The notes beneath the pieces are model-generated. The model was given only the letters and a program-made list of their open reading frames with translations. It had not been told where the DNA came from and searched no databases. From NCBI GenBank assembly GCA_017434295.1, contig JAFRFO010000102.1, forward strand, positions 1 to 32,258: a stretch of 32,258 nucleotides of DNA. Direction: 5' to 3'. How positions within the stretch are numbered: the first letter of the stretch is position 1; every line of letters starts with the position of its first letter. Of this stretch, positions 1,968-29,448 are shown piece by piece. The stretch is from Clostridia bacterium (GTDB taxonomy: Bacteria > Bacillota > Clostridia > TANB77 > CAG-508). Made by a program: the position numbers and the translations under genes.

Positions 1968-2033
1968 TTTTAAAGCATTTTTAAAGTTGTTTTAAAGTCC
2001 TTTAAAATTAGTTTAAAATCAGTTTAAAGCAAA
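1968..2033. repeat. 11-bp AT-rich array A (TTTTAAAGTNN x6) upstream of int
   Basis: Six units start at 1968, 1979, 1990, 2001, 2012 and 2023, exactly 11 bases apart, each with a TTTTAAAG or TTTAAAA core. They lie in the promoter region of int (minus) and directly before the rightward promoter at 2050. The same family occurs at 2267, 3163 and 9282. Phasing with the helical turn suggests cooperative protein binding or DNA bending. Confidence 0.85.
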
Positions 2034-2049
2034 ATATTTTACATAATTT

Positions 2050-2078
2050 TTGACAACAAACTCCTTTCATTTTATAAT
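2050..2078 (+). promoter_or_regulatory. Consensus sigma-A promoter for the 46-residue ORF
   Basis: TTGACA (2050-2055) and TATAAT (2073-2078) with a 17-base spacer, a perfect consensus. It lies between two 11-bp repeat arrays and reads into the small ORF at 2126. Confidence 0.8.
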
Positions 2079-2125
2079 ATATATAAGTAGTATTATTACT
2101 TTCATTTTTTAATGGAGGTAATGAA

Positions 2126-2266
2126 ATGAATAAAATAAAAATTTTTTTACTAAAGATAAGAGAAAGAAAATTAGTATTTAAAGTCCAATATCTTTATTGT
2201 AGAAAAATTAAAAAATATAGTATATTAAAATCAATACATATAATTATAAAATACTTATTAAAGTAG
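2126..2266 (+). CDS. Small basic protein, 46 residues, unknown
   Basis: A short ORF with a strong ribosome site (GGAGGTAATGAA) and a perfect promoter 50 bases upstream. The product is very basic and hydrophobic (MNKIKIFLLKIRERK.., ending IIIKYLLK), with about a third lysine and arginine. Its stop codon touches the first unit of the second 11-bp array. Position next to int and the repressor would fit a small regulator or excisionase, but the sequence shows no known fold. It could also simply be the leader of a regulatory transcript that reads through the repeats to the terminator at 2361. Confidence 0.55.
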   Translation: MNKIKIFLLKIRERKLVFKVQYLYCRKIKKYSILKSIHIIIKYLLK

Positions 2267-2354
2267 TTTTAAAGTTGTTTAAAAGTACTTTAACATTAAT
2301 TTAAAAAGTATTTAACATTAGTTTTAAAGTTATTTTAAAGTAGTTTAAAAGCAA
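2267..2354. repeat. 11-bp AT-rich array B (TTTTAAAGTNN x8)
   Basis: Eight units start at 2267, 2278, 2289, 2300, 2311, 2322, 2333 and 2344, exactly 11 bases apart, with a degenerate ninth at 2256 inside the small ORF. It is the longest copy of this repeat family and lies between the small ORF and a bidirectional terminator. Confidence 0.88.
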
Positions 2355-2360
2355 ATAAAC

Positions 2361-2395
2361 AAATAGGAGATACCCGTAGGTAACTCCTATTTTAC
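2361..2395. terminator. Bidirectional terminator between small ORF and repressor
   Basis: A 14-pair stem with one mismatch (left arm 2361-2374, loop CGTA, right arm 2379-2392) with A-rich and T-rich flanks on both sides. It separates the rightward small transcript from the leftward repressor gene. Confidence 0.75.
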
Positions 2396-2436
2396 ATTTT
2401 AATTACGATTTTAAATTACCTTAATGGTATAGAATA

Positions 2437-2766
2437 CTATCTATCCTCTTGTTCTTCTACAAATTCTATAAACTTTTTAATTTGTTCTTTAGATTTTAAA
2501 GATAGGTTCGCATATTTCTGTTTATCAATCCCCAATAAATCAAGTATTTCCTTTTCCGTATTTGTTGATTTTTTTATTGAACTTAATCCTAATAAATAAT
2601 CAGCCGATACATTAAAAAATTTGCATAAATTTATAATCTGATCTTCTCTCAATAATATTTTTCCAGTTTCATATTTACTTACATTTGAGCGTTGAACATT
2701 TAATATTTTAGAAAGTTGTTCTTGTTTAATATCATTTTCTTCTCTTAAATTTTTAATTTTATTCAT
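2437..2766 (-). CDS. XRE-family (C1-like) transcriptional repressor
   Basis: A 109-residue helix-turn-helix regulator. Residues 1-60 form a typical XRE domain: KIKNLREENDIKQEQLSKIL, then the recognition helix around RSNVSKYETG, then LCKFFNVSADYLLG. The C-terminal 45 residues are charged and probably helical (dimerisation). A metallopeptidase-cleaved repressor would need a longer domain, so induction is not by self-cleavage of a LexA type. It is divergent from the Cro-like gene at 2932; the shared intergenic region has two palindromic operators over the opposing promoter. It probably holds the element quiescent. A minus-strand -10 (TATAAT) is seen at 2789-2794, with an AAGGGG ribosome site before the ATG. 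Confidence 0.92.
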   Translation of the reverse strand: MNKIKNLREENDIKQEQLSKILNVQRSNVSKYETGKILLREDQIINLCKFFNVSADYLLGLSSIKKSTNTEKEILDLLGIDKQKYANLSLKSKEQIKKFIEFVEEQEDR

Positions 2767-2851
2767 AATAAAAACCCCTTATGTCTTTATTATAAAGGAT
2801 TTTAACAATATTATTAATAAAAAGATTTAAAAAAGAACAAATATAAAAAAA

Positions 2852-2866
2852 GTTCTTGACAGGAAC
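2852..2866. promoter_or_regulatory. Palindromic operator O1 (GTTCTTGACAGGAAC)
   Basis: GTTCT-TGACA-GGAAC, a near-perfect inverted repeat that contains the -35 hexamer TTGACA of the rightward promoter. Its partner O2 lies 33 bases downstream, three helical turns away. It is the likely site of the XRE repressor or its Cro-like opponent. Confidence 0.85.
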
Positions 2867-2884
2867 TAAAAAAAGATATATAAT
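2856..2884 (+). promoter_or_regulatory. Main rightward promoter of the maintenance operon
   Basis: TTGACA (2856-2861), 17 bases, TATAAT (2879-2884). The -35 lies inside operator O1 and operator O2 begins one base after the -10, so occupation of either site should block RNA polymerase. It drives the operon from 2932, probably up to 10748. Confidence 0.9.
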
Positions 2885-2899
2885 GTTCCTGACAGGAAC
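2885..2899. promoter_or_regulatory. Palindromic operator O2 (GTTCCTGACAGGAAC)
   Basis: A perfect 5-base-arm palindrome (GTTCC / GGAAC) around TGACA, covering the start point of transcription. Confidence 0.87.
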
Positions 2900-2931
2900 A
2901 AAAACGAGAAAAGAAAAAAGGAGGAACAAAA

Positions 2932-3159
2932 GTGGAGAAAAAAATAAAAAAATTTTACAGAATTAAATTAATAAGAAAAGAAAGAAATATAAGAGCAAAA
3001 GAATTAGCAGAAAAAATGGGATATAAATCAACTAATATATTATATAAAAAAGAGAACTTAAGTGTTCCATTTACAGACAAAGATTTAAAGATAGCTTCAG
3101 AAATATTAAAATGTAAAATAGATAAACTTGTTGAAATTGTTGAAAGCACTGAAATATAA
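2932..3159 (+). CDS. Cro-like helix-turn-helix regulator
   Basis: A 75-residue DNA-binding protein with a GTG start chosen because AAAGGAGGAAC lies at 2917-2927 and no ATG follows soon. RIKLIRKERNIRAKELAEKMG and the following YKSTNILYKKEN resemble the first helices of a Cro/C1 domain. It is the first gene of the operon under the O1/O2-controlled promoter and faces the C1-like repressor, the usual arrangement of a lysogeny-type switch. I infer that it competes at O1/O2. An 11-bp repeat array follows directly, so it may control the downstream genes at a second level. Confidence 0.75.
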   Translation: MEKKIKKFYRIKLIRKERNIRAKELAEKMGYKSTNILYKKENLSVPFTDKDLKIASEILKCKIDKLVEIVESTEI

Positions 3160-3162
3160 ATG

Positions 3163-3239
3163 TTTTAAAGTAATTTTAAAGTGATTTAAAAGTAGTTTAA
3201 AGCAACTTTAAAACCAATTTAAAAGTAATTTAAATGTAT
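3163..3239. repeat. 11-bp AT-rich array C (TTTTAAAGTNN x7)
   Basis: Seven units start at 3163, 3174, 3185, 3196, 3207, 3218 and 3229, exactly 11 bases apart. They fill the gap between the Cro-like gene and the next gene, just before the ribosome site. Candidate operator or centromere for the Par-like protein or one of the small HTH proteins. Confidence 0.88.
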
Positions 3240-3259
3240 TAAGAAAGAGAGGGATAGAT

Positions 3260-3520
3260 ATGAATATTAAAGTTGATGGTAATTTACAAGAACAAATAAA
3301 TCAACTAGAAAGAATTATACAGCTTTTAGATCAAATTGAAGAAAGAGAACCATTAAATTTTATTAGTATAAAAGATATGTGTAAAATGACTTCCTGGAGT
3401 GAACCAACAATTAAAAAATTATTTAATAGACCTGATTTTCCTAGTTGCGATTTTGGAAAAGAAAAAATAGCAGAAGTTTCTGCTGTTAAAAAATATTTTA
3501 GCGTACCAAGAAGAAAATAA
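3260..3520 (+). CDS. Excisionase-like / MerR-type small DNA-binding protein
   Basis: An 86-residue protein with an N-terminal short coiled coil (QEQINQLERIIQLLDQIEER) and a C-terminal winged-helix segment (FISIKDMCKMTSWSEPTIKKLF..FPSCDFG..AVKKYF) like the HTH_17/excisionase family. Such proteins bend DNA in excision or regulate plasmid operons. It sits at the head of the replication gene cluster, so a copy-control or excision role is equally possible. Ribosome site GAAAGAGAGGG precedes the ATG. Confidence 0.7.
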   Translation: MNIKVDGNLQEQINQLERIIQLLDQIEEREPLNFISIKDMCKMTSWSEPTIKKLFNRPDFPSCDFGKEKIAEVSAVKKYFSVPRRK

Positions 3521-3539
3521 ATACGAGGGGGATTATACA

Positions 3540-4478
3540 ATGGCAGAAGAAAAAAAGAAAAAAAATTATAGTAAATATAACAAAAAATATTATTGGCTTA
3601 AATTTAAACAAGATTTTTTTGAAGAAGATACTATTAAGTGGCTTGAAGAACAAGAAGGTGGAAAAGATTATGTGTATTTTTATCTAAAATTATGTAGTAA
3701 AGCAATAAGCACAGATGGTATTCTGATTAGAAAAGTGGGAGATATGCTAATTCCTTATAATGAAAAAACAATAGCAGATTTAACTAATACTAATATTGAT
3801 ACTGTTCGAGTTGCAATGCAAGTTTTAATTAAAGTAAAACTAATTACAATTTTAGAAAATGGAGCAATTTTTTTGGAACAAATTATACCGTTAATTGGAA
3901 CAGAAAGTAATAAAGCAGAACTAATGAGAAGAAAAAGACAAAGAGACAAATTACTTACAGCTTCAAGTAAAAAAGATATATTAGGAGTTGGTAACAATGT
4001 TACCAATATGTTACCAACAGGTTACCAAGAAGTTACTAATCCGTTACCAAAAAGTTACCTAGATATAGATAAAGATAAAGATATAGATACAGAAGAAATA
4101 AGGACAATGACATTTGACACTTTATATAATTTAATAAATGAAATAATCAAACAAGCCAAGGAAGATTCTGAACTTTTAGAAAGAGATACTGATATTTTTA
4201 AAGAACTAAAAAGGTTAAATTACTATATTTCAGATATTTCATTTTTTAATAATGATATATTACCCAAAGAAAGTAAAGAGTATTTTATGGTAGTAATATA
4301 TGCTATAAATGAAATCATAAATGGAAAAAATGGCGAAAAAATTTATAAATTAACTGAAGAAGATATAAAGACAATTTTTCTTAAATGTAAAGAAAAAATG
4401 GAAATTGCAGATGAAAACGGGGATTATATAAGATTTTTAAATTATTTCATCAAGAGTTTGATAAACAAAATAAAATAA
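3540..4478 (+). CDS. Replication initiator, phage replisome-organiser type
   Basis: A 312-residue protein. The first about 120 residues (YYWLKFKQDFFEEDTIKWLEEQ.., LCSKAISTDGILI, TIADLTNTNIDTVRVAMQVLIK) match the phage replisome organiser N-terminal winged-helix domain related to RepA_N initiators. A linker at about 150-185 is encoded by the origin iterons (3988-4061), which forces the repeated NVTNMLPTGYQEVTNPLPKS-like pattern. The C-terminal part is charged and probably interacts with helicase or loader. Binding to its own coding sequence would start replication, as in phages and RepA_N plasmids. The next gene encodes a Par-like protein, supporting autonomous replication of the circle. Ribosome site GAGGGGG lies upstream. 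Confidence 0.88.
   Translation: MAEEKKKKNYSKYNKKYYWLKFKQDFFEEDTIKWLEEQEGGKDYVYFYLKLCSKAISTDGILIRKVGDMLIPYNEKTIADLTNTNIDTVRVAMQVLIKVKLITILENGAIFLEQIIPLIGTESNKAELMRRKRQRDKLLTASSKKDILGVGNNVTNMLPTGYQEVTNPLPKSYLDIDKDKDIDTEEIRTMTFDTLYNLINEIIKQAKEDSELLERDTDIFKELKRLNYYISDISFFNNDILPKESKEYFMVVIYAINEIINGKNGEKIYKLTEEDIKTIFLKCKEKMEIADENGDYIRFLNYFIKSLINKIK
3988..4061. other. Candidate replication origin: 11-bp iterons inside rep
   Basis: GTTACCAA-type octamers start at 3999, 4010, 4021, 4032, 4043 and 4054, exactly 11 bases apart (fourth GTTACTAA, sixth GTTACCTA). An inverted copy TTGGTAAC at 3988-3995 forms a perfect palindrome with the first. A run of GATATAGATAAAGATAAAG follows (about 4060-4092) and is a natural unwinding region. 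Iterons inside the initiator gene are known from phage replisome organisers and RepA_N plasmids. Confidence 0.85.
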
Positions 4479-4491
4479 GGGGGAAGATAAA

Positions 4492-5001
4492 ATGTATACA
4501 ATTAACGAGGTTGCAAAAAATTTAGATTGTTCAGTACAAAATATATATAATCAAAAAAATGAACTAATTGAAAAAGGATATATAGTAGATGGAGCAAATG
4601 GAAAAGAAATAACCAAAGAAGGATATAATTACTTATTACAAAAAAGAGCAAAGAATTCCAAAGTAATTACACCGATAAATACTCAAGAAAAAAACGAAAG
4701 CGAAATTGAAATTGAAAATAAATATTTAAAGAGAGAGATTGAGTTGTTAAAAGCTCAATTACAAGTGGCAAACGAAAGAGAAAAAAGTTATAGCTCAAGG
4801 GAACTATATTATCAAGAACAACTAAAAACAACAATGGAAGATAAAAATCTATTCAAAGCTATGTATCTTCAGGTTGATGAAGCTAACAAAATGTTATTAG
4901 ATACTGCAGAAAATAATAAAAAGAAAATGTTGTTAGATATGGCAGAAAATAATAAAAAGAAAAAAGGATTGTTCAAATTTTTTAATAGTAAAAATAAATA
5001 A
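4492..5001 (+). CDS. pSK1 Par-like partition protein
   Basis: A 169-residue protein with an N-terminal helix-turn-helix (MYTINEVAKNLDCSVQNIYNQ) and a long central coiled coil (about 70-150), ending in a basic-aromatic tail (KKKKGLFKFFNSKNK). This order matches the single-protein partition system of staphylococcal plasmid pSK1 (Par, N-terminal HTH plus coiled coil). It follows rep directly. Residues about 134-157 are a tandem 12-residue duplication (MLLDxAENNKKK twice). I infer that it binds one of the 11-bp arrays nearby as a centromere. It needs no ParA partner, and no classic ParA is encoded here. Confidence 0.75.
   Translation: MYTINEVAKNLDCSVQNIYNQKNELIEKGYIVDGANGKEITKEGYNYLLQKRAKNSKVITPINTQEKNESEIEIENKYLKREIELLKAQLQVANEREKSYSSRELYYQEQLKTTMEDKNLFKAMYLQVDEANKMLLDTAENNKKKMLLDMAENNKKKKGLFKFFNSKNK
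4891..4962 (+). repeat. 36-bp tandem duplication inside the Par-like gene
   Basis: Two copies (4891-4926, 4927-4962) differ at a few bases and extend the coiled coil by 12 residues. It preserves the reading frame. Confidence 0.85.
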
Positions 5002-5124
5002 AGCAAAATTTGAAACGAGAATCAACATATAAGAAATTTATTATATTAAATAATAAAGTTTATCTTTATAAAAATAATTAGTCTTAAAATTAGATTTAAC
5101 GAGAATAAAAAGGAGATGAAAGAA

Positions 5125-5700
5125 ATGGGTAAGGTATTAAATCCTGAACTGGAAAAATTGTTAGAGGAATCTATACAAAGAAATATAGAAAAAGCATTAG
5201 AAAAAACAATGAAACAGGTTCAACAAAATGAAGAAAATGATATTTATACACAAAAAACAGAGATAATATTAAAGAATTATAATATATTAAAACTGCAAAC
5301 CGAAGATGTAATACTAGATATTAATACATTACAAGAAGTTAAGGAAAAAAAGATAAACGAATTAATGAAAGATATTTTTGTTAAAGATGATGATTCAATA
5401 GAAGAAGTAATTTTAAATAGTAAAAAGAAAACTAAAATATTCGTTGATTATATGGAAAAAATTTTAAAAAAATATATTGATGAAAGAAAAAGCTTAAAAG
5501 CTATTGATAATAGAAAACATAAAAAAGAAATTAGAAAAATACTTATTTTGGAAAATTATTATATGACTAAAAAATACGAAAGAGAAGATTTTTTAGTTGA
5601 ATATAATATGACATTACCAACATTTCTAAAAGACAATAAAGAACTAATTGAAGAAATTAAAATTCTAATTTATGGAATTGATGGGCTTAATGTTCTTTAG
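5125..5700 (+). CDS. ArpU-like / sigma-like helical protein
   Basis: A 191-residue, highly charged, mostly helical protein. The C-terminal part (RKILILENYYMTKKYEREDFLVEYNMTLPTFLK, shown in part) resembles the region 4-like HTH of ArpU/YqaQ-type late regulators: a tyrosine-rich helix followed by a recognition helix. The ATG at 5125 is preferred over 5116 because AAAAGGAG ends one base before 5116. Membership in the ArpU family is tentative. It is the last gene before the candidate oriT and may link replication genes with the transfer genes. Confidence 0.6.
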   Translation: MGKVLNPELEKLLEESIQRNIEKALEKTMKQVQQNEENDIYTQKTEIILKNYNILKLQTEDVILDINTLQEVKEKKINELMKDIFVKDDDSIEEVILNSKKKTKIFVDYMEKILKKYIDERKSLKAIDNRKHKKEIRKILILENYYMTKKYEREDFLVEYNMTLPTFLKDNKELIEEIKILIYGIDGLNVL

Positions 5701-5721
5701 AATAGTAGGCTTATATTTTTA

Positions 5722-5768
5722 CCTTGCTTTTTATTAGCAAGGCAGGATAGCAATTATTACATAATTGC
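5722..5768 (-). other. oriT: Candidate oriT with MOBP-type nick motif
   Basis: On the minus strand a perfect hairpin (GCAATTAT, GTA, ATAATTGC; 5768 to 5750) is followed at once by TATCCTG and CC. TATCCTG followed by a pyrimidine is the nick consensus of RP4-like MOBP origins, where an inverted repeat lies just upstream. The predicted nick is between 5743 and 5742 of the minus strand. A second perfect hairpin (CCTTGCT / AGCAAGG, 5722-5742) lies on the other side. The nick consensus of MobL-type relaxases may differ, so this is a candidate. Confidence 0.6.
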
Positions 5769-5777
5769 GAAAACAAC

Positions 5778-5815
5778 TAGAGGGACAAGCCCTCTAAATG
5801 TAATTTTTTTAAAAA
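5778..5815 (+). terminator. Hairpin with T-run, possible terminator
   Basis: TAGAGGG (5778-5784) pairs with CCCTCTA (5790-5796) over a five-base loop, followed after a short gap by seven T residues (5804-5810). It may end the rep-par transcript or be part of the oriT structure. Confidence 0.5.
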
Positions 5816-5832
5816 AATGTATTATAAAAAAA

Positions 5833-5861
5833 TTACAAAGTCCACCAGGTGGACTTTGTAA
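5833..5861 (+). repeat. Perfect 14-bp inverted repeat before topoisomerase operon
   Basis: TTACAAAGTCCACC (5833-5846), one central A, GGTGGACTTTGTAA (5848-5861). It ends one base before the AAAGGAGG ribosome site of the next gene. It could be an operator, a translation-control hairpin, or a single-strand structure used during transfer. Confidence 0.85.
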
Positions 5862-5878
5862 GAAAGGAGGTAAAAGTT

Positions 5879-6040
5879 ATGAAAGCAACTAATATTTTTA
5901 CAAAAATAATGGACTTGATAGAAAAAGAAACCGATATGCCATTACTTGAAAAAGACTTAAATAAATGGTTAGTAAAAGAACCAAGAAATCATATTATTTA
6001 TGAAATATATAAAAATGCAAGTAAAAATAGAGAAGTATAG
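5879..6040 (+). CDS. Small hypothetical protein, 53 residues
   Basis: The ATG at 5879 is chosen because a perfect AAAGGAGG lies at 5863-5870; the frame can be read from 5849 but that start lies inside the palindrome. The product is charged (MKATNIFTKIMDLIEKETDM.., ..EIYKNASKNREV) with no recognised domain. It lies 17 bases before the topoisomerase gene, so the two are probably translated from one message. Confidence 0.65.
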   Translation: MKATNIFTKIMDLIEKETDMPLLEKDLNKWLVKEPRNHIIYEIYKNASKNREV

Positions 6041-6057
6041 AAAGGAAAAAAAAGAAA

Positions 6058-8142
6058 ATGTCAAAAGCACTAATTATAGCTGAAAAGCCAAGTTTAGCTC
6101 AAAAAATTATAGGAGCTATAGGAAATATGAAAAGAGTAAATGACTATTACGAAAATGATGAATTTATTGTTACTTCAGTTTTTGGTCATTTATTAACTTT
6201 ATATGATATTGAAGATTATACAGGAGAGGAAAAAAAGAAATGGTCATTAGATAATTTACCATTTTTTCCTCAAAACTTCGAATATAAAATTAAAAATGAT
6301 ACAGGTATAAAAGAAAGATATAAACTAATAAAAGAATTAATAAAAAGAAATGATGTTACTGAAATAATAAATTCAGGGGACGCTGATAGAGAGGGAGAAG
6401 TATTAATAAATATTGTTGTTTATAAAATTTTTAAAGAATTAAAAATTAGTAAAAAAATAACAAGAATATGGCTTGAAGATCAAACTGAAAACACTATTAG
6501 AAAAGAATTAAAATACAGAAAAGATATTAAAAATACGGAGAATCTATACAATGAAGGATTGGCAAGAAGTTATATAGATTGGCTATATGGTATTAATCTT
6601 ACTCGTTATATATCTTTGAAAGCAGGAACTACTTTAAATACAGGAAGAGTTATTATTCCAACGGTAAAATATATTTATGATAGAGATATGCAAATAAAAA
6701 ATTTTAAAGCTGAAAAATATTATACACTATCAGCAGTAATAAACAAAGAAGGGCAAGAAATAAAACTAGATTTTTCAAAACTTAAATTTACAAAAGATGA
6801 ATACGAAAAAGCTTTAAATATTAAAAGAGAAATAGAAAATAAAAACATTAAAGTGGTTAATGTAGAAAATAAAGAAGTGACAAAAAAACCTAAAAAATTA
6901 TTTTCATTGGCTACATTACAAAATTATATGTCTAAAAATTATAAAATAAGTTTAGATAAAACATTAAGTCTTGTTCAAAGCTTGTACGAAAAAGGATATT
7001 TGACTTATCCAAGAACGAATACTGAATATATGGCAGAAGAAGAAATCCCTAAAGTTGAAAGAATATTACAAGTCTTAAATAATTCAGATTTAGAATTAAA
7101 GAAAACAAAAGCAATCTTTGATTCTTCAAAAGTTGAATCACATAGTGCTATTACAATTACCGAAAAATTAGTTGATGAAACAAAGTTATCTGATGACGAA
7201 ATAAAATTGTTTAATGTAGTAAAAAATAGATTTTTTGCTAATTTTACAAAAGAAGAGTGTATTTTATCACAGACAATAGTTACTTTTGAAATTGAGAATA
7301 CAGAGTATTCAACAAAGTTAAAAGGAACTTCTGTAATACAACAAGGATATTTAAAATTTGAAAATGATTTAAATGAAAAATCAGTTCCAATATTTAAAAA
7401 TAATGAATTATTTAAAAATAATATTAAACTTGAGGAAAAAGAAACAACGCCACCTAATAAAGTAACAGAGGCAGAGCTTAATAGATTTTTTGAAAAACCG
7501 TTTAAAAAGCAAGAAGTTGAAGATGAAAATGAAGAAGAAAATGATACTGAAGATTATAAAGCAATTCTTAAAGGAATTGAAATAGGTACTCCTGCAACAA
7601 GGTCAGGAACGGTCGAAAAAGTCAAAAAAATAGGTTATATAAGTGCCAATAAAAATATATTATCTATTACAGATTTAGGTATAAAATTTATTGAAACTTT
7701 AGATAAATTAAATATAAACTTATATAAAGAAAAAACTGTTGAACTTTCACAAAACCTAAAAAATATATATAATAAGCAGGATACAATTGATAATGTTGTA
7801 AAAAAAGAAGAAGTTACAATAAAAAACATAATGAATCAAAACATAGATGTTGAAAGAATATCTAAAAATATTAATAAGGAGAGTTTAGGAAAATGTCCTT
7901 TATGTCATAAAGATATTTTTGAAAGTAAATTATCTTATTCTTGTTCAGGATTTAAAGAAGGTTGTAAATTTTCAATATGGAAAACAATTGCAGGAAAAAG
8001 TATAACTAAAAGTCAAGCAAAAAAATTGCTTTTAAAAAACAAAACAGATTTAATAAAAGGGTTTAAAAGCAAATCAGGGAAAGAATTTAACGCATACTTA
8101 AAGTTAGAAAAAGATGGAAGTATAAAGTTTGAATTTAATTAA
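6058..8142 (+). CDS. Type IA DNA topoisomerase (TopB/TraE-like, element-borne)
   Basis: A 694-residue topoisomerase III-like enzyme that passes single strands and would relax or decatenate DNA during replication and conjugation. Motifs visible: Toprim E9 (IIAEKPS) and D108-A-D110-REGE; Y317 nucleophile in YLTYPRTN; TGRV near 196; ATR near 507 (IGTPATRSGTV). A four-cysteine zinc ribbon (C613, C616, C629, C636) closes the protein. Length and motif order are complete. Such enzymes are common in Gram-positive conjugative elements, where they accompany the relaxase. It is in the maintenance operon, not in the secretion operon. Confidence 0.96.
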   Translation: MSKALIIAEKPSLAQKIIGAIGNMKRVNDYYENDEFIVTSVFGHLLTLYDIEDYTGEEKKKWSLDNLPFFPQNFEYKIKNDTGIKERYKLIKELIKRNDVTEIINSGDADREGEVLINIVVYKIFKELKISKKITRIWLEDQTENTIRKELKYRKDIKNTENLYNEGLARSYIDWLYGINLTRYISLKAGTTLNTGRVIIPTVKYIYDRDMQIKNFKAEKYYTLSAVINKEGQEIKLDFSKLKFTKDEYEKALNIKREIENKNIKVVNVENKEVTKKPKKLFSLATLQNYMSKNYKISLDKTLSLVQSLYEKGYLTYPRTNTEYMAEEEIPKVERILQVLNNSDLELKKTKAIFDSSKVESHSAITITEKLVDETKLSDDEIKLFNVVKNRFFANFTKEECILSQTIVTFEIENTEYSTKLKGTSVIQQGYLKFENDLNEKSVPIFKNNELFKNNIKLEEKETTPPNKVTEAELNRFFEKPFKKQEVEDENEEENDTEDYKAILKGIEIGTPATRSGTVEKVKKIGYISANKNILSITDLGIKFIETLDKLNINLYKEKTVELSQNLKNIYNKQDTIDNVVKKEEVTIKNIMNQNIDVERISKNINKESLGKCPLCHKDIFESKLSYSCSGFKEGCKFSIWKTIAGKSITKSQAKKLLLKNKTDLIKGFKSKSGKEFNAYLKLEKDGSIKFEFN

Positions 8143-8159
8143 TAATATGGAGGAAAATT

Positions 8160-8555
8160 ATGGGAAAGTACATAAAAGAATACTTTGAAAAAGAGTTGAG
8201 TTATGCACAAGGAAAATTAGCAAGTATTAAATTTTGGTTAAATGATAATGAAAATGAAGAAAATGAAAAGGTAAAGAAAACAAGAGAAATCTTAAAATCA
8301 AATTTAGCATTTAGAAATATAGATGATTGGAAAGAATATAAAGAACAACAAATAAAAGAAGGCGAAGAAACAATAGAAAAAATAAAAAGCATAATAGAAA
8401 AAAGTGAAGAAATAAGTGATGAAGACCTAATAAAAGGATATGAAGAAATGCAAAAATTAAAGGACTTGTTTATTATTGATAAAAATGATAAAATATTAAA
8501 CAAGGAATTAAATTTCCGAGATTTAATTAAATATGTAAAAGGAAAGTTAAAATAA
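8160..8555 (+). CDS. Hypothetical coiled-coil protein, 131 residues
   Basis: A lysine- and glutamate-rich helical protein, strongly predicted to be coiled coil through residues 5-105 (KEYFEKELSYAQGKL.., EETIEKIKSIIEKSEE..). No membrane segment or catalytic motif is visible. It starts 18 bases after the topoisomerase stop with GGAGG as ribosome site. No family recognised; it might be an accessory of the topoisomerase or of the next DNA-binding protein. Confidence 0.75.
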   Translation: MGKYIKEYFEKELSYAQGKLASIKFWLNDNENEENEKVKKTREILKSNLAFRNIDDWKEYKEQQIKEGEETIEKIKSIIEKSEEISDEDLIKGYEEMQKLKDLFIIDKNDKILNKELNFRDLIKYVKGKLK

Positions 8556-8572
8556 TTTAGGGGTTAATACTA

Positions 8573-8785
8573 ATGGAAGAAGAAAGAGAGAATATTTTTA
8601 TTGCAAATAAAATATATACTGATGTAGTTGATTTTATTAAAACTCAAAAGGGATTTAGTTCATATACTCTTGTCAGAAAATATAAAATAGGATATACTAC
8701 AGCTAATATCATAATTGATAAGTTGATTAGAGATGGATTAATTGAAGAACATTATGGGACTTATTGGGTAATACAAAATAATTAA
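8573..8785 (+). CDS. Stand-alone FtsK gamma-like winged-helix protein
   Basis: A 70-residue protein matching the C-terminal gamma domain of FtsK/SpoIIIE: IYTDVVDFIKTQKGFSS, then LVRKYKIGYTTANIIIDKL, then DGLIEEHYG. In FtsK this domain reads orienting sequences and contacts the Xer recombinases. Here there is no motor domain; the whole protein is the gamma fold. It may therefore be a DNA-binding regulator, or act on the tyrosine recombinase of the element or host Xer. The ribosome site is weak (GGGG, 8560-8563), suggesting low expression or translational coupling. Confidence 0.8.
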   Translation: MEEERENIFIANKIYTDVVDFIKTQKGFSSYTLVRKYKIGYTTANIIIDKLIRDGLIEEHYGTYWVIQNN

Positions 8786-8808
8786 AATAATTTTAGGAGA
8801 TAACTTAT

Positions 8809-9276
8809 ATGAATAATATTATTATTTCAAAGAGATATAGTAATGATGAAATAAAATTAGAATATGGACTATTTGTAAAACCTATTGAAACACAAATAAA
8901 ATTTGAAACTAACAATAAATATGTTTTAAAAAATAATAAATATATGAATAAAATATCAGAATCTGTATTTATTTTATATAAGGAAAAGTTATTGTCAATA
9001 GAAGAAGTAAGAAAGATTATTGAAGAGCTTGATAATAGAATTAGAAGAGAAATTGAATTAAATCAAAAAGAGATTAAATATAGAAAATTGTCTGAATTAT
9101 ATCCAAAGCACAATGTAAGGAGAAGAAAAGAAATTGAAGATGAAATATTTAATGAAGTTAAAGAACTTTATTTTAATAAAAATATGAAACAAATTGATAT
9201 TGCTAAAAAATTAAAAATAGATCCAAAATCAATAAGTCATATTATTTATAAACTTAATAAAAATATTTCTAATTAA
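8809..9276 (+). CDS. Hypothetical protein with C-terminal HTH
   Basis: A 155-residue protein. The C-terminus (KELYFNKNMKQIDIAKKLK, then IDPKSISHIIYKLNK) has a clear helix-turn-helix of the resolvase/sigma-region-4 type. A charged helical stretch at about 60-115 (EEVRKIIEELDNRIRREIEL..) precedes it. The N-terminal 50 residues look like beta strands of unknown fold. It is a candidate regulator of the conjugation operons, since no other protein in the element is an obvious match for the palindromes in the four leader cassettes; this is inference only. Confidence 0.7.
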   Translation: MNNIIISKRYSNDEIKLEYGLFVKPIETQIKFETNNKYVLKNNKYMNKISESVFILYKEKLLSIEEVRKIIEELDNRIRREIELNQKEIKYRKLSELYPKHNVRRRKEIEDEIFNEVKELYFNKNMKQIDIAKKLKIDPKSISHIIYKLNKNISN

Positions 9277-9281
9277 ATAGC

Positions 9282-9325
9282 TTTTAAACTACTTTAAAAG
9301 TTATTTAAAATATGTTAAAATATTA
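9282..9325. repeat. 11-bp AT-rich array D (TTTTAAACTNN x4) upstream of fic
   Basis: Four units start at 9282, 9293, 9304 and 9315, exactly 11 bases apart, degenerating at the end. They lie in the 84-base gap before the Fic gene, where a promoter could also lie (TATTATAAAT near 9320). Confidence 0.75.
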
Positions 9326-9360: not shown

Positions 9361-10125
9361 ATGATAATAAGTAAAGAACAAATTAAATATGCGAAACAAA
9401 TAGATAGTCCATATTATAATGAAATTAAAATAGAATTTTTATTTCACTCAAATAAATTGGAAGGTAGTACATTTGATGAAGAACAATTAATTTCATTAAT
9501 TGCAGAAAATAAAGTACAAGGTGAACATAGCATAGATGATGTTCAAGAAACAATCAATTCTATTAAATTATTTGATTTTGTAGTAGATACTTTAGATGAA
9601 GATCTAACACCTAGATTGTTAAAAGAATTTAATTCTTTGCTAAAACAAAACACTAAACAAGAAGAATATGGTCTAGTAGGAGTATTTAAAAAAATACCAA
9701 ATAAATTATTAGGAGTAGATTTAAAAACTGCACAACCACACGAAGTAGAAGAAAAGATTAAAGGATTATTAAATTCTAAAATTAATAGTGTAGATGATGT
9801 TGCAAATTTTCATCAGGAATTTGAACATATACACCCTTTTCAAGATGGAAATGGTAGAATTGGAAGGTTTTTAATGTTAAGGCAATGTATATTAAATAAT
9901 ATTGATTTAATTGCAGTTGATAATGAATTCGAAAAAGAATATAAAGAAAATTTATATATTGCACAAACTCAAAATAACCTAAAACCATTAGTAGATACTT
10001 TTTATAAGTGTCAAAAAAGGTTAGATAACAAATTAAAAGATATTAAAGAATTTTTTCAAGAAGTTGAAAAAATTAATAATGCTGAGGAAGTCGAAAGTGA
10101 AGATGATGAAGATCTTGATATGTAA
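9361..10125 (+). CDS. Fic-domain AMPylase with N-terminal inhibitory helix and acidic tail
   Basis: A 254-residue Fic protein, an enzyme family that usually transfers AMP from ATP to a target protein. The catalytic motif HPFQDGNGRIGR is complete (H158 to R169). An inhibitory motif SNKLEG (S30, E34, G35), the (S/T)xxxE(G/N) form, lies in the N-terminus, so it belongs to the self-inhibited class (N-terminal inhibition) and needs no separate antitoxin. Residues about 235-254 form an acidic tail ending DEDLDM, shared with the relaxase and ArdC tails. I infer that it is delivered to the recipient through the conjugation channel. Its own 11-bp array upstream suggests separate control. Confidence 0.93.
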   Translation: MIISKEQIKYAKQIDSPYYNEIKIEFLFHSNKLEGSTFDEEQLISLIAENKVQGEHSIDDVQETINSIKLFDFVVDTLDEDLTPRLLKEFNSLLKQNTKQEEYGLVGVFKKIPNKLLGVDLKTAQPHEVEEKIKGLLNSKINSVDDVANFHQEFEHIHPFQDGNGRIGRFLMLRQCILNNIDLIAVDNEFEKEYKENLYIAQTQNNLKPLVDTFYKCQKRLDNKLKDIKEFFQEVEKINNAEEVESEDDEDLDM

Positions 10126-10139
10126 AAGAAGGGAATAGT

Positions 10140-10748
10140 ATGAATAAAAGAAAAGTTTTAGGTATTAATTATTATGATATAGATAGGGTAAGGTTTAAAT
10201 GGACTAATGGAAGTGGTTCAGTGAAAATCACTTATAAAGATAATAATTATGGAGATAAAAAAGGAAATGAATTTTGCGTAAGAAATATTGAAAATTTATA
10301 TAAGTTATGTATTAGATGTTTAGAAAAAGATGATATTAGAACATATCAGAATCTTATAGGATTGGGGTTAATTAAAAAAGCTAAATTAAGAAAGGGTTCG
10401 TATATAACAATCTTTGATAATATTAATGAATACAAAAATATAACGATTAAAGGTTTGAATGTAAAAGAGTGTTTAAAATTTGTTTGCGATAATCAGGAAA
10501 AAGCGAATATAGAAATAACAGATGTGATGTATGCAGGAGTGAAATTTAATTATGATTTTAAACACAATGTTAAGGATTCTAATATTAATATAGAACAGAC
10601 TGAAAAAGATAATAGCGAAAAATTGTTAGAGGAAATAAAACAATTGAAAGATGAAATCAAAGTCTTACAAAGCAAGATTGAAACAAAGGAAAAACAGGAG
10701 CCTAAGCCTGAAATTGAAAGTGAAGATGATGAAGAACTTGATATGTAA
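10140..10748 (+). CDS. Unknown protein with coiled coil and acidic DM tail
   Basis: A 202-residue protein. Residues 1-140 are of mixed beta/alpha type (GINYYDIDRVRFKWTNGSG.., CVRNIENLYKLCIRCLEKDD..), followed by a coiled coil at about 157-187 (EKLLEEIKQLKDEIKVLQSK..) and an acidic C-terminus ending DDEELDM. The end is nearly the same as that of the Fic protein 14 bases upstream, although the rest is unrelated. No family recognised. The shared tail and adjacency suggest a Fic-linked effector or adaptor carried to the recipient. Confidence 0.8.
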   Translation: MNKRKVLGINYYDIDRVRFKWTNGSGSVKITYKDNNYGDKKGNEFCVRNIENLYKLCIRCLEKDDIRTYQNLIGLGLIKKAKLRKGSYITIFDNINEYKNITIKGLNVKECLKFVCDNQEKANIEITDVMYAGVKFNYDFKHNVKDSNINIEQTEKDNSEKLLEEIKQLKDEIKVLQSKIETKEKQEPKPEIESEDDEELDM

Positions 10749-10751
10749 AAT

Positions 10752-10901
10752 TTTATAAAAACTTTATAAAAGCTTTATAAAATCTTGTTTGACAATGCTT
10801 TTTTTAGATGATACAATACTATCATCAAAAATTGTCAAGAGAGGAAGAACTGCAAAGTTCTTCTTTTTTTGACTCTTTTTATTTTAGAAAGGAAGGTTTT
10901 T
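10752..10901 (+). promoter_or_regulatory. Conjugation leader cassette 1 (DNA-processing operon)
   Basis: Parts in order: three 11-bp boxes TTTATAAAANC (10752, 10763, 10774); -35 TTGACA 10789-10794; -10 TACAAT 10812-10817 with 17-base spacer; operator GATGATA-N6-TATCATC (10807-10826) over the -10; outer inverted repeat TTGACAAT (10789) / ATTGTCAA (10831). The 5' leader forms an 18-pair perfect stem (10834-10851 with 10856-10873) with a GCAA loop. The ribosome site GAAAGGAAGG precedes the ATG at 10902. Three further copies start at 15583, 22724 and 29449. Confidence 0.93.
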
Positions 10902-11909
10902 ATGGAAAATAATCAAAGAAAAGAAGAAGAATTGAGATTCGCAAAAATGAGGGAAAGATTTAATAAAATACATACAAATAATAATCATTCAAATAGTACT
11001 GAAAGCGTTGAAACTACAGAAACTGAACAACAGAATGAAAACATAAAAGAAATTGCTGAAGAAGTTAAAAAGGTAGCTCAAAATCAAGTTGGAACTTTAA
11101 CAGAAATAGAAATATATAAGCTAAAACCATATGAATATAAGGGAGAAGGACAGCCATTTAATGAATATAATTCAAAGAAATATGAAGATGTAAAAAATTC
11201 TATTATATTAAATGGATTGCACGAACCTATAATTGTAAGGAAAATTGCTAATGAAGATAAATACGAAATAATTGCAGGACACAATAGAACTAAAATCTTT
11301 AAAGAGCTAGGAAAAGAAAAAATACCAGCTTTAATAGTAGATTGCGATGATGATAAAGCGAGATTAATAATGGTTGAAACGAACATTATGAAAAGAGATG
11401 AAATAACACCAATGGAAAGAGCTAGAGCATATAAAATTCAAAAAGATATCTACAGCAAGAAAAAATATGGAGAAGATGAAAAAATAGCAATAAAAACTAT
11501 TTTAGAAGAGAATAGCACAAGTAAAGGGAATTTTTACAGATATTTATCATTAAACAATTTAATTCCAAAATTTCAGGAGTTAGTTGAAAATAAATTTAAT
11601 ATTAAAAATGCTGAACAAATATCATTTTTAAAAAAAGAAGAACAAGAAAATTTATATGTTTTATTAAATGATAAAAAAATAAAAGTAAATGATAAAAAAT
11701 TAAAGATTTTAAAAAATTTATCAAATGAAAATGAAAATGTGTTATCTGAAGATGAAATAGTAAATTGTTTTAAAGAAAATTTAAAACCTAATATAGAAAT
11801 ATCTATAAATCTTAATAATGAAGAGATAGAAAAGTATTTTCCTGCAAATATAGATAAAAAAGAAATAAAAGAAATAATAATTAAAGCATTAGACAAATAT
11901 TTCAATTAG
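10902..11909 (+). CDS. ParB-like nuclease/CTPase-fold protein
   Basis: A 335-residue ParB/Spo0J family protein. Residues 1-60 are a polar linker-like N-terminus. The ParB N-terminal domain covers about 64-160 with the C-motif AGHNRTKIF (G126-R129), which in ParB binds CTP. A DNA-binding helical region with HTH character follows (ITPMERARAYKIQKD.., SKGNFYRYLSL). A TTG start 33 bases upstream is in frame, but the ATG at 10902 has the ribosome site and the fourth leader copy breaks that frame. It is the first gene of the DNA-processing operon, and with no cognate ParA it may organise oriT or regulate transfer rather than segregate. Confidence 0.88.
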   Translation: MENNQRKEEELRFAKMRERFNKIHTNNNHSNSTESVETTETEQQNENIKEIAEEVKKVAQNQVGTLTEIEIYKLKPYEYKGEGQPFNEYNSKKYEDVKNSIILNGLHEPIIVRKIANEDKYEIIAGHNRTKIFKELGKEKIPALIVDCDDDKARLIMVETNIMKRDEITPMERARAYKIQKDIYSKKKYGEDEKIAIKTILEENSTSKGNFYRYLSLNNLIPKFQELVENKFNIKNAEQISFLKKEEQENLYVLLNDKKIKVNDKKLKILKNLSNENENVLSEDEIVNCFKENLKPNIEISINLNNEEIEKYFPANIDKKEIKEIIIKALDKYFN

Positions 11910-11926
11910 AATAGGGAGAAATGAAA

Positions 11927-12364
11927 ATGAAAAACGATAAAATTTTAAGAAACGCAAGAATAGATAAAAGACTAGATGAAAATGTTGTTAAGTATTGTTC
12001 GCAGAATCACATTTCATATACAAAAGCTATAAATGAAGGCTTGAAATTACTAACAAAAACACAAATGATAGAAGATAATTTACCTGAAATTTTAGATACA
12101 ATCGAACGAAAAATTAATGATATTTTAGAACCCTATACAAAAAGCTCAAGAAAGGTAATGGCAAAATGTGCCAAAAGCAGTCTTTCAGCAATATTTTTAA
12201 ATGGAGAAGTTTATAAATCAATTTTTAAAGAAGATGAAGAAATATTGCAAGAATTAATAAATAAAGCAGATAAAAAAGCTTATGTAGTTTTAAAAAATGG
12301 ATATTTAGAAGGAGATATAACTGAATTATTTAAAGCAAAAGATGAAAATGACAAGGAGGAATAA
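11927..12364 (+). CDS. CopG-like relaxosome accessory protein
   Basis: A 145-residue protein; the ATG at 11927 is preferred to 11921 by distance from AGGGAG (11913-11918). The N-terminus (RNARIDKRLDENVVKYCSQNHISYTKAINEGLKLL, shown in parts) fits a ribbon-helix-helix domain: RIDKRLDENV strand and helix, then SYTKAINEGL. The rest is helical with a central MAKCAKSSLSA segment. It sits directly upstream of the relaxase, where MobC-like accessory proteins that bind oriT are expected. Direct homology to MobC cannot be judged by eye. Confidence 0.72.
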   Translation: MKNDKILRNARIDKRLDENVVKYCSQNHISYTKAINEGLKLLTKTQMIEDNLPEILDTIERKINDILEPYTKSSRKVMAKCAKSSLSAIFLNGEVYKSIFKEDEEILQELINKADKKAYVVLKNGYLEGDITELFKAKDENDKEE

Positions 12365-13581: not shown

Positions 13582-15579
13582 ATGGAAAAGAAGAAAAAAA
13601 TAATAAAAATTATAGCAACAATTATAGCATTAATAATTTCATTTTTTTTATCAATATATATTAGTTATTTTTTACATTTATCTTTTTCACATCAAGAAAG
13701 AGAAATACTAAATATGACTTTTGAAACGAACATTAATGCTGTATTTACAGATGAAAAAGTAAGACAATTATTTTTAATAACATATTTAATTTTTGTTGGA
13801 TTACTAATGTATTTAGCTTATGGTAAAAATAAACAAAATAAGTATCAAGCAAAAGTTTATAAAGTTACAGATGATATAGAAATTCCATTACCTGTTGGAA
13901 ATAGCCAATATCAACACGGCAGTGCGTGGTTTTTAGACAAAAAGAAATATAAAGAAATCTTTGGAGTTAATGAAGTTGATTTAGATAATGAAACTATTAA
14001 AGGAATAATTGAACAATATAAAAAGGGCGAAGAAAATATTGATATAGACAATTTAAAAGAATATCCAACTATTTTTAAAAAGGGTGGAATTGTTGTAGGA
14101 AAAGAAGAAAAAGGAAATAAAGAAATTGTTTATTATATAGATAACAATTTACATACTCTAACAATAGGAGCTACAAGAAGTGGTAAAACTAGAAATTGTG
14201 TATTGCCATCTATTTGTAATTTAGGTTTAGCAGGGGAGAGTATGATTATAAGTGACCCAAAAGGCGAATTATATAGTTATACTAATATTTTCTTGAAAGC
14301 TTTAGGATATAATGTTTTAACTTTAGATTTTAAAGAACCTTTAAAATCTAGTAAATATAATTTTTTACAGCCTGTTATAGACGCTGTAAATCAAGGGGAT
14401 ATACCACTAGCTCAAAATCGTGCTGCAGATATTGTAAATGCGTTAGTAGGAGAAACAAAGGGAGAAAAAATATGGTCAGATGGTCAAAAATCCGTAATGA
14501 AAGCAGGAATAATGGCTGTTGTAATGGAGAATAAATCACACCCTGAATATCAGAATTTATACAATGTTTATAACTTTCTTGCCTCTATGTGTGCAGTAAA
14601 TCAAGAATTTAAATGTTCATTGATTGATACATATTTAAAAGATTTACCAATTGAACACCCTGCTAGACAAGGTTTTCAACCAGCCTTAATTGCAGGAGAA
14701 AAAACTAGAGCAAGTTTTTATACTTCAGTATTAAATACTTTAGAATTATTTACAGACCCATATATTGCAAATATAACAAGTGCAACAGAAATAATAAATA
14801 ATAAAATTGGAGAAGAAAAAACGGCTATTTTTATGATTCTTCCTGATGATAAAACAACTTATTATGGACTTTGTAGTTTATTTGTAAGTCAAATATATAC
14901 TGGTCTAGTTGAACAAGCCGATGACTTTGAACATGGTGGACAACTACATAGAAGAGTTAATTTTATTTTAGATGAGTTTGGAAACTTTACAGCAATACCT
15001 AATTTTGGAGGATTCTTAACGGTAGGTGGAGGAAGAAGAATAAGATTTAATTTATTTTTACAATCATTTAGTCAATTAAATGAAAAATACGGCGACAATA
15101 TGGCAAAAAATATATTAGATAACTGCTATGTATGGAATTACTTAAAGACTGCAAATGATGAAACAGCAGAAAAAATAAGTAAAAAGCTAGGAACGTATAC
15201 TACTACAACATTTTCAGAAAGTAGTAGTGATAATGGAAAAAGTTCAAGTATGAATATTGGAAGTAGACCTTTATTAACTCCTGCAGAAGTATTGATGATA
15301 AATAGACCATATCTATTAGTAATGAATTCAGGTAGCCAACCTGCAATAACTTTTAGCCCTGATTTAAGTAAATGGACTTATAATAAATTGCTAGGTTTAG
15401 GAAATGAAGAATATAATAATAATGTTAGAATGACAAGGTCAATAAAAAGATGTGCAAGAGAGTGTGAAAAATTAAGAATATGGGATATAGAAAAACAAAT
15501 TGTAGAGAGAAAAAGACAAGAAGTTGTTGAAAACAATGAGAATAGTTTATTAAGATTCAATAAAGCAAGACTACAATAA
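13582..15579 (+). CDS. virD4: VirD4/TraG-type coupling ATPase
   Basis: A 665-residue coupling protein that receives the relaxosome and passes it to the channel. Start 13582 has AAAGGAG at a good distance. Two membrane segments lie at about 9-31 and 62-80. Walker A is GATRSGKT (196-203) and Walker B FILDEFGN (about 461-468); SDPKGEL at about 224-230 is typical of the family. Polar C-terminus. It is the last gene of the DNA-processing operon. It is the expected reader of the shared cargo tail, because type IV coupling proteins recruit C-terminal signals. Confidence 0.96.
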   Translation: MEKKKKIIKIIATIIALIISFFLSIYISYFLHLSFSHQEREILNMTFETNINAVFTDEKVRQLFLITYLIFVGLLMYLAYGKNKQNKYQAKVYKVTDDIEIPLPVGNSQYQHGSAWFLDKKKYKEIFGVNEVDLDNETIKGIIEQYKKGEENIDIDNLKEYPTIFKKGGIVVGKEEKGNKEIVYYIDNNLHTLTIGATRSGKTRNCVLPSICNLGLAGESMIISDPKGELYSYTNIFLKALGYNVLTLDFKEPLKSSKYNFLQPVIDAVNQGDIPLAQNRAADIVNALVGETKGEKIWSDGQKSVMKAGIMAVVMENKSHPEYQNLYNVYNFLASMCAVNQEFKCSLIDTYLKDLPIEHPARQGFQPALIAGEKTRASFYTSVLNTLELFTDPYIANITSATEIINNKIGEEKTAIFMILPDDKTTYYGLCSLFVSQIYTGLVEQADDFEHGGQLHRRVNFILDEFGNFTAIPNFGGFLTVGGGRRIRFNLFLQSFSQLNEKYGDNMAKNILDNCYVWNYLKTANDETAEKISKKLGTYTTTTFSESSSDNGKSSSMNIGSRPLLTPAEVLMINRPYLLVMNSGSQPAITFSPDLSKWTYNKLLGLGNEEYNNNVRMTRSIKRCARECEKLRIWDIEKQIVERKRQEVVENNENSLLRFNKARLQ

Positions 15580-15582
15580 AAT

Positions 15583-15732
15583 TTTATAAAATCTTTATAA
15601 AAGCTTTATAAAATCTTGTTTGACAATGCTTTTTTCAAATGGTAAAATATTATCATCAAAAATTGTCAAGAGAGGAAGAACTGCAAAGTTCTTCTTTTTT
15701 TGACTCTTTTTATTTTAGAAAGGAAGGTTTTT
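15583..15732 (+). promoter_or_regulatory. Conjugation leader cassette 2 (secretion-channel operon)
   Basis: TTTATAAAANC boxes at 15583, 15594, 15605; TTGACA 15620-15625; -10 TAAAAT 15643-15648; right operator half TATCATC (15651-15657) conserved but left half AATGGTA differs from GATGATA at two positions; 18-pair RNA stem 15665-15682 / 15687-15704 with GCAA loop. Directly after the VirD4 stop; there is no other terminator before it. Confidence 0.9.
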
Positions 15733-16113
15733 ATGGAAAAAGAAAAATTAACAAAAAAAATTCAAAATAAGAAGGACAAACTTTTAGGATTATTACTAAC
15801 AGGAACAGCTACAATAGGTATATCTAATGTATCAATGGCTGTAGAAGAAATCTCAGGAGGAGGAGATATCCAGAATAGTAAAATTGCTCAAGGTTTTATG
15901 AAACTTATAAAAGATTTTTCAGGATATCTTATGTGGATAATTCCAATAGCAGGAGTTGTGGGTATTTTAATTTGTATTTTTAAAATTATAACAGGAGATG
16001 AACAAGATGGAGAAAGATACAAGAAAAGAATTGTTAAAATTTTAGTCTGTGTAATAGCAGCCGTTTCAGCAGTTACAATTATCAACTTAATAATGGGATA
16101 TTTCGGTAATTAA
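15733..16113 (+). CDS. VirB2-like pilin / TrbC family
   Basis: A 126-residue protein with a signal-like N-terminal segment (about 17-35, LLGLLLTGTATIGISNVSMA) and two membrane segments at about 66-86 and 100-120. Between them lies the loop FKIITGDEQDGERYKKRIVK, a short basic cytoplasmic turn typical of VirB2. It would form the channel-associated pilus or inner-membrane platform. First gene of the channel operon. It resembles the N-terminus of the protein at 16987. Confidence 0.82.
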   Translation: MEKEKLTKKIQNKKDKLLGLLLTGTATIGISNVSMAVEEISGGGDIQNSKIAQGFMKLIKDFSGYLMWIIPIAGVVGILICIFKIITGDEQDGERYKKRIVKILVCVIAAVSAVTIINLIMGYFGN

Positions 16114-22429: not shown

Positions 22430-22720
22430 ATGTCTAAATCTCAAAAAAGATTATATGAAGCATATAAAGAGAAAAAAGAACAAGAAATTAAAAAGAATAA
22501 ATATAAAACTAATGAAGATGATAAAATTGTTGTAGAATTAAATAAAAATACAGGAATAAAAATATTGTCATTAATTTTTAATGTAATAGAGAAAATTATA
22601 AAAGCAATAATTGTTATTGCAATATTTGTTTTTATAACAATAGGATTTACGATGTTAATAAATCCTAATTTAAATATTCAAGATATATATAATGCAATTT
22701 GTAATAATTTTCATTTATAA
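22430..22720 (+). CDS. Small membrane protein, C-terminal anchor
   Basis: A 96-residue protein with a very basic, lysine-rich N-terminus (RLYEAYKEKKEQEIKKNKYK) and one to two hydrophobic segments at about 44-80 (ILSLIFNVIEKIIKAIIVIAIFVFITIGF, split in two). It ends the channel operon. No family recognised. Confidence 0.72.
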   Translation: MSKSQKRLYEAYKEKKEQEIKKNKYKTNEDDKIVVELNKNTGIKILSLIFNVIEKIIKAIIVIAIFVFITIGFTMLINPNLNIQDIYNAICNNFHL

Positions 22721-22723
22721 AGT

Positions 22724-22873
22724 TTTATAAAATCTTTATAAAAGCTTTATAAAATCTTGTTTGACAATAGGTTTTGAAGATGATACAATACTATCATCAA
22801 AAATTGTCAAGAGAGGAAGAACTGCAAAGTTCTTCTTTTTTTGACTCTTTTTATTTTAGAAAGGAAGGTTAAA
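22724..22873 (+). promoter_or_regulatory. Conjugation leader cassette 3 (accessory operon)
   Basis: TTTATAAAANC boxes at 22724, 22735, 22746; TTGACA 22761-22766; TACAAT 22784-22789; operator GATGATA-N6-TATCATC 22779-22798; 18-pair RNA stem 22806-22823 / 22828-22845 with GCAA loop; ribosome site before ATG 22874. Confidence 0.92.
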
Positions 22874-23903: not shown

Positions 23904-24029
23904 ATGAAAACTATAAAAGAAATAATTGAAGAAGAAGGTATTATCCTTTGTAGTAAAAAAGAACTTGAGGAATTAAAAAAATATGATGAAAGTAATAAAG
24001 AAGAAGTAAGGGAGATAATAAATGAGTAA
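23904..24029 (+). CDS. Tiny acidic protein, 41 residues
   Basis: A short ORF with a good AAGGAG ribosome site. The product (MKTIKEIIEEEGIILCSKKELEEL..) is acidic and helical. It overlaps the ArdC start by 8 bases, so it is probably translated and may act by coupling. No family recognised. Confidence 0.5.
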   Translation: MKTIKEIIEEEGIILCSKKELEELKKYDESNKEEVREIINE

Positions 24030-25588: not shown

Positions 25589-25601
25589 AAAGGAGAAAGT
25601 T

Positions 25602-29410: not shown

Positions 29411-29448
29411 TTATTTAAGAGAACAATAAGAATATTTAATAATAAAAT

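Follow-up and report, generated by a model that had tools for sequence, protein, structure and literature searches.

Phased 11-bp arrays at four loci of a circular conjugative element as candidate operator/centromere sites for a Par-like protein

Which protein do four arrays of a short repeated unit serve when they are scattered over one mobile element? The question arises in a 32,258-nucleotide stretch of DNA (the window, meaning the whole stretch analyzed), where arrays of the unit TTTWAAAGTNN lie at four places (Table 1). A sequence-only reading had offered three answers: a partition centromere bound by a pSK1-Par-like protein, operators of a small HTH protein, or silencing sites.

The window contig is circular. 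Its first 141 bases equal its last 141 and an open reading frame spans the joint; with the terminal overlap removed the circle measures about 32,117 bp, and it sits in a 1.4-Mb genome bin. The element encodes an integrase, an XRE repressor, Rep, a topoisomerase, a Fic protein, a ParB-like protein, a relaxase, VirD4, T4SS proteins, a sortase and a surface protein. L036, a relative of its left module from a goat-omasum genome, is joined to chromosomal DNA near tRNA-His and tRNA-Gln, and we therefore take the window to be an integrative conjugative element in circular form. No clear attB candidate was found in the window's own genome, and Rfam gave no match. The 11-bp repeats TGCAGTACTAC at 483-507 and 717-746, which flank the presumed attP next to int and are partly kept in L036, are candidate arm-type integrase sites. 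A stand-alone 70-aa protein encoded at 8573-8785 matches the FtsK gamma DNA-binding domain (PF09397, E 3e-8).

Table 1. Arrays, genes and sites in the left part of the window, by position.
Feature	Position	Strand	Description
Array 1	1968..2033	+	Six 11-bp units (1968, 1979, 1990, 2001, 2012, 2023), the last degenerate; between int(-) and a 12/12 sigma-70-type promoter
Consensus promoter	2050..2078	+	TTGACA-17-TATAAT (12/12); starts about 17 bp past the end of array 1; identical in L036
Small ORF	2126..2266	+	46 codons, basic; between arrays 1 and 2; stretch conserved in L036; served by promoter 2050..2078
Array 2	2256..2354	+	Nine 11-bp units (2256-2344), two of them TTTAACA; 3' end of small ORF
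XRE repressor	2437..2766	-	Pfam HTH_3, E 8e-13
Palindromes	2852..2899		GTTCTTGACAGGAAC and GTTCCTGACAGGAAC; overlap the promoter of the rightward operon; outside the arrays
Array 3	3163..3239	+	Seven 11-bp units (3163-3229); directly upstream of hth86-rep-par
hth86	3260..3520	+	86 aa; excisionase/Cox/BldC-fold winged-HTH protein (AlphaFold model and PDB structure matches)
Rep	3540..4478	+	Phage replisome organiser N-terminal domain (PF09681, E 1.4e-18; TIGR01714)
Rep's own iterons	3999..4059	+	11-bp GTTACCAATAA; inside rep
par169	4492..5001	+	169 aa; pSK1-Par/RocS-like: predicted winged HTH and long helix, GLFKFF segment at the C terminus; proposed array binder
Array 4	9282..9325	+	Weaker; units 9282, 9293, 9304 and a degenerate fourth at 9315; upstream of Fic gene
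Fic/DOC family protein	9361..10125	+	PF02661, E 3.6e-15; downstream of array 4

The arrays were analyzed for phasing. The period is exactly 11 bp in arrays 1-3 in the TTTWAAA register; array 4 holds this register more weakly and a 10-bp register fits it too. The sequence-only reading had given 6, 8, 7 and 4 units, all exactly 11 bases apart. Its counts for arrays 1 and 3 and its placement of the arrays relative to genes stand, array 2 has nine units rather than eight and array 4 three to four, and the exact period applies to the first three. Over 25 array units the commonest letters were T25 T24 T25 W25 A25 A23 A22 G15 T17. Scoring as a run at least four TTTWAAA cores at period 11, each with at most one mismatch, gave run lengths of 6, 10 and 7 for arrays 1-3. 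The 100 dinucleotide-shuffled control windows averaged 0.02 runs each, the longest of 4 cores. In the window, periods 9, 12 and 13 gave no runs of at least four cores and period 10 gave two (array 4 and an array at 10744). The single word TTTTAAAGT was not enriched (85 observed, 79 expected), so the signal lies in tandem phasing. Arrays 1-4 are confirmed as real, far beyond chance. Elsewhere in the family, one other genome among 292 had a 4-unit pattern, minisatellite-like there. Array 2 lies between convergent genes, and a hairpin is seen by eye just past it, at about 2362-2395.

Conservation follows the unit core. Arrays 1-3 are kept in place in the integrated relative L036, array 1 with one change, and across the three arrays 1 of 154 core sites was substituted against 7 of 88 spacer sites (Fisher p=0.004). 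Whether close relatives that keep the regulators also keep the arrays had been raised by the sequence-only reading; L036 has arrays 1-3 together with par169 (96% identical) and hth86 (73%). Rep differs there in its N-terminal half (36% identity, against 89% in the C-terminal part). The iterons inside rep differ together with that half, and the arrays are unchanged. Since the Rep half and its iterons changed in L036 while the arrays stayed, the Rep N-terminal domain is probably not the array reader and, as far as sequence comparison goes, probably reads its own iterons GTTACCAATAA. This rejection covers the N-terminal domain; the conserved C-terminal part of Rep may be a binder. Across elements of the group the 11-bp iterons differ (GTTACCAATAA at 3999-4059 of the window, a TGTAACA type in L036, GACAGACAAAT in L104 and TTGGTTGCAAT in L133), and they lie inside rep where checked. 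The XRE repressor is also an unlikely array binder, since the palindromes at 2852..2899, over the divergent promoter, are likely operators of its own, with the candidate sequence GTTCYTGACAGGAAC.

Co-occurrence of the motif with genes was examined in relatives and in small plasmids. The genomes searched for homologues of hth86 and par169 numbered up to 292 in the family, 385 in the order and 211 in the genus, and small plasmids were tested by tblastn (E <= 1e-3) for 17 window proteins. In plasmids L101, L102, L108, L149-L152 and L155, par169 was the sole detectable homologue among the 17; L154 matched par169 and, weakly, the integrase. A position matrix derived from the arrays of the window was used to score 3-unit 11-bp arrays against shuffles, with a lowest attainable p of 0.003. 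Arrays at p=0.003 lie 113-167 bp upstream of par in lineages L091/L101, L139/L152 and L141/L154. Lineage L092/L102 was borderline (p=0.05) and has two exact copies of TTTTAAAGT at a distance of 22 bp; in L155, spaced sites are visible by eye only (p=0.17). Overall, the motif lies about 100-165 bp upstream of par in the small plasmids. Because two of the three p=0.003 lineages are related plasmids, we count about two to four independent array-positive lineages.

A wider scan covered about 0.8 Mb. Apart from loci that had been retrieved through the array pattern, 3-unit scores of at least 14 fell on arrays of the window/L036 lineage, beside par, or at two weaker sites, one scoring 14.2 (in the window and its copy L131) and the other 14.5. 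A 20-mer from array 1 and the par plasmids (at most one mismatch) hit 7 of 211 genomes, four of them being the window, L036 and two par plasmids; a reversed control gave a similar total count, so this is a weak test by itself. Divergent par homologues of the L104 and L107 types, which sit in an operon, showed no TTTWAAA arrays on the stretches read. Their recognition segment is NSVQAIYNQSKEL vs SVQNIYNQKNEL, a difference that could explain the absence of arrays. No relatives of hth86 or par were found in a plasmid collection, of hth86 in phages, or of hth86, ParB or the L154 par in viral contigs, and Rep had distant matches only. As to which gene accompanies period-11 arrays in relatives, a check proposed by the sequence-only reading, the motif goes with par169 in several small plasmids and is lacking in the 15 hth86 lineages other than the window and L036.

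The main rival binder is hth86 itself, which would polymerise head to tail on direct repeats one turn apart and serve as a recombination directionality factor and regulator of int, its own operon and fic. Its model has P2 Cox, BldC, the Xis proteins of lambda, Tn916 and Pukovnik, and RdfS among the leading PDB matches (Z 5-7). Cox/Xis-type proteins bind direct repeats spaced by 10-11 bp, and int or the protein's own promoter is under the control of some of them (PMC7498355, PMC11963761). At att and in regulatory regions, P2 Cox, 186 Apl and RdfS-type factors, whose fold the hth86 model resembles, use direct repeats spaced by one helical turn (PMC7498355, PMC11963761). Array 3 directly upstream of hth86, array 1 upstream of int and the retention of hth86 in array-keeping L036 are in keeping with such a role. 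The window differs from those systems at the presumed attP region next to int (about 400-760), where no TTTWAAA array was found, and its arrays do not track hth86 homologues. Apart from the window and L036, hth86 lineages (n=15) had no arrays, with one marginal match (best p=0.017), and the int-xre-hth86 elements L112 and L115 had none upstream of hth86. The motif-bearing plasmids have no detectable hth86. The hth86 homologues are distantly related, at about 28-42% identity in alignments that span most of the protein, so hth86 specificity may have changed across them. As operators of a small HTH protein, the arrays might belong to hth86, with its array-free distant relatives against it, and less probably to XRE; we consider binding by hth86 unlikely.

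Another DNA-binding protein of the element is an improbable reader. The candidates are a 75-aa HTH protein, the FtsK-gamma-like protein, an HTH protein (8809-9276) whose gene is followed by array 4, the ParB-like protein (10869) and the RHH-like protein (11921). This class is favored by an isolated strong array in L190, a related transfer module (L190:4880-4923; TTTTAAAGTAG TTTAAAACTAA TTTAAAGGAGA; score 29.5), where it lies between mob and virD4 homologues and near parB- and rhh147-like genes. Against it, all five were undetected in the array-bearing par plasmids (tblastn, E <= 1e-3). The 64-kb L190 contig has no par or hth86 homologue; that genome does have an L104-type par, on a different contig. 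In a Mu-like prophage record (G464), 11-bp TTTAAAA arrays occur at three places close to where genes start or end (L164:3488, L164:8489, L049:1521), and none of 10 tested window DNA-binding or related proteins, par included, was found on the stretches searched. The lone L190 array and these prophage arrays are left unexplained by a Par-like binder. Viral contigs with a 4-unit TTTWAAA pattern (15 stretches) were likewise followed up; they proved to be unrelated phages, including Mu-like ones, with no par or hth86 homologue detected. The silencing sites of the sequence-only reading found no support, and it is quite improbable that the arrays are simply AT-rich DNA near promoters, acting like UP elements or as targets of a host silencer, with no dedicated element-encoded binder, as their AT-richness, their location in or near regulatory gaps and the prophage arrays beside gene starts might suggest, given core-specific conservation, strict phasing, the placement of array 2 and the near-absence of the 4-unit pattern from the family.

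A structural model of par169 was compared with known structures. It has a predicted N-terminal winged HTH followed by one long predicted helix (residues 71-167). Like that of hth86, this fold is one known to use repeats spaced by one turn. It aligns with the DNA-binding domain of pSK1 Par on centromere DNA (8csh) over 51 residues at 2.1 A (Z 6.4, 24% identity), a match that sits among other MerR-type folds at Z 6-7, a common type, and it aligns with a RacA-DNA structure too. At the sequence level no match to pSK1 Par was obtained. DUF536 was absent from the Pfam families listed for nine par169-group members at E <= 1 (25 of 40 families), and was unmatched at E <= 10 in four members. The group ends in KKGLFKFF, KKGFFARLFS, KKTFFQRLFN or KKSFWKRLFS, with moderate hydrophobic moment. 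By eye, the KKGLFKFF-type end resembles the MinD-like C-terminal helix described for RocS and Par (PMC11500499). We say that par169 may work like pSK1 Par, and we keep it out of the pSK1 Par family because it has no DUF536 match.

On balance, we think it somewhat probable that the arrays are distributed operator/centromere sites for par169. This protein is favored among the three alternatives because the motif accompanies par homologues in plasmids that are otherwise unrelated to the element: small plasmids with par169 as their one detectable match among the 17 window proteins carry both motif and spacing upstream of the gene. In the proposed mechanism, the winged HTH of par169 would sit on each 11-bp unit, one helical turn apart; units and arrays would be linked to one another through its putative coiled coil, and the aromatic/basic segment at its C terminus would contact the membrane. 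Jointly, the four arrays would form the distributed centromere of the excised, replicating circle and secure its passage to daughter cells. Those at promoters, array 3 (hth86-rep-par), array 4 (fic) and array 1 (int and the consensus promoter), would double as operators, tying copy number, excision and cargo expression to the level of Par. In the simplest model one protein would bind and bridge all four arrays, stabilise the circle at division and repress or tune adjacent genes. We infer binding, bridging, partition, membrane contact and regulation alike. The window arrays are not directly upstream of par itself; the nearest precedes the genes leading to par.

The unit of pSM19035 parS is 7 bp and that of R1 parC is 11 bp, and ParR works with the actin-like ParM. 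In pSM19035, several parS arrays (9, 7 and 10 units) lie over promoters of copy-number and maintenance genes and act as centromere and operators (PMC5016525). The window arrays are laid out alike, as separate arrays at regulatory regions, so the spread over regulatory gaps that the earlier reading called unusual has a precedent. The proteins differ: omega has a ribbon-helix-helix fold and is paired with a ParA motor (delta), whereas the window candidate is a predicted winged-HTH, putative coiled-coil protein on 11-bp units. No ParA or ParM family match was found in Pfam scans of most window proteins. An RHH-like protein seen by eye in the relaxase operon (11921-12364) was not detected in array-bearing plasmids. 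ParR-bound parC of R1 and pSK41 has its tandem repeats ahead of the operon, and those of R1 form two sets with a promoter between them (PMC5016525); arrays 1 and 2 likewise flank a promoter. In contrast, ParR is an RHH protein, and no ParR/ParM-type pair occurs among the scanned window proteins. Likeness to pSK1 Par and its fold relatives RocS and RacA extends to a predicted winged HTH, a putative coiled coil and a short C-terminal aromatic/basic segment (PMC11500499), and to repeats upstream of the par gene in several small plasmids. The par169 group differs in having no DUF536 match and in arrays at four places on a conjugative element.

We also considered whether a single Par-like protein, without an NTPase motor, is the global organiser of the integrative conjugative element, a possibility that we regard as rather doubtful. 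Arrays in the regions of integrase, replication and Fic, possibly joined in relatives by arrays at transfer genes, would then gather into one nucleoprotein cluster that partitions the circle and toggles element genes between the integrated and the circular state. If the par169 reading is right, motorless single-protein partition would extend from plasmids to a conjugative element, and shared sites would couple segregation with regulation of excision, replication and cargo. It would also provide a concrete DNA motif for finding such systems and for testing how they work without an NTPase.

Other repeats and tails were seen in the element. Four near-identical promoter-leader cassettes (10735-10905, 15570-15740, 22705-22880 and 29430-29600) precede the ParB/mob, T4SS, 22841 and adhesin genes, and occur in the L036 genome as well (L131). 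Each has 3-4 units of TTTATAAAAKC, a second family of 11-bp arrays, that stop just short of TTGACA, then an inverted repeat around the -10 (GATGATACAATACTATCATC in 3/4) and a leader with a terminator-like hairpin. The set looks like a transfer regulon with attenuation. Similar acidic tails end five otherwise unrelated proteins: Fic (9361-10125; EDDEDLDM), a 202-aa protein (10140-10748; EDDEELDM), an ArdC-like protein (24022-25038; EDDEDFEM), a 148-aa protein (25539-25985; AEDDFEM) and a 287-aa protein (26604-27467; DEDDFEM). These tails may mark co-transferred proteins for type IV secretion.
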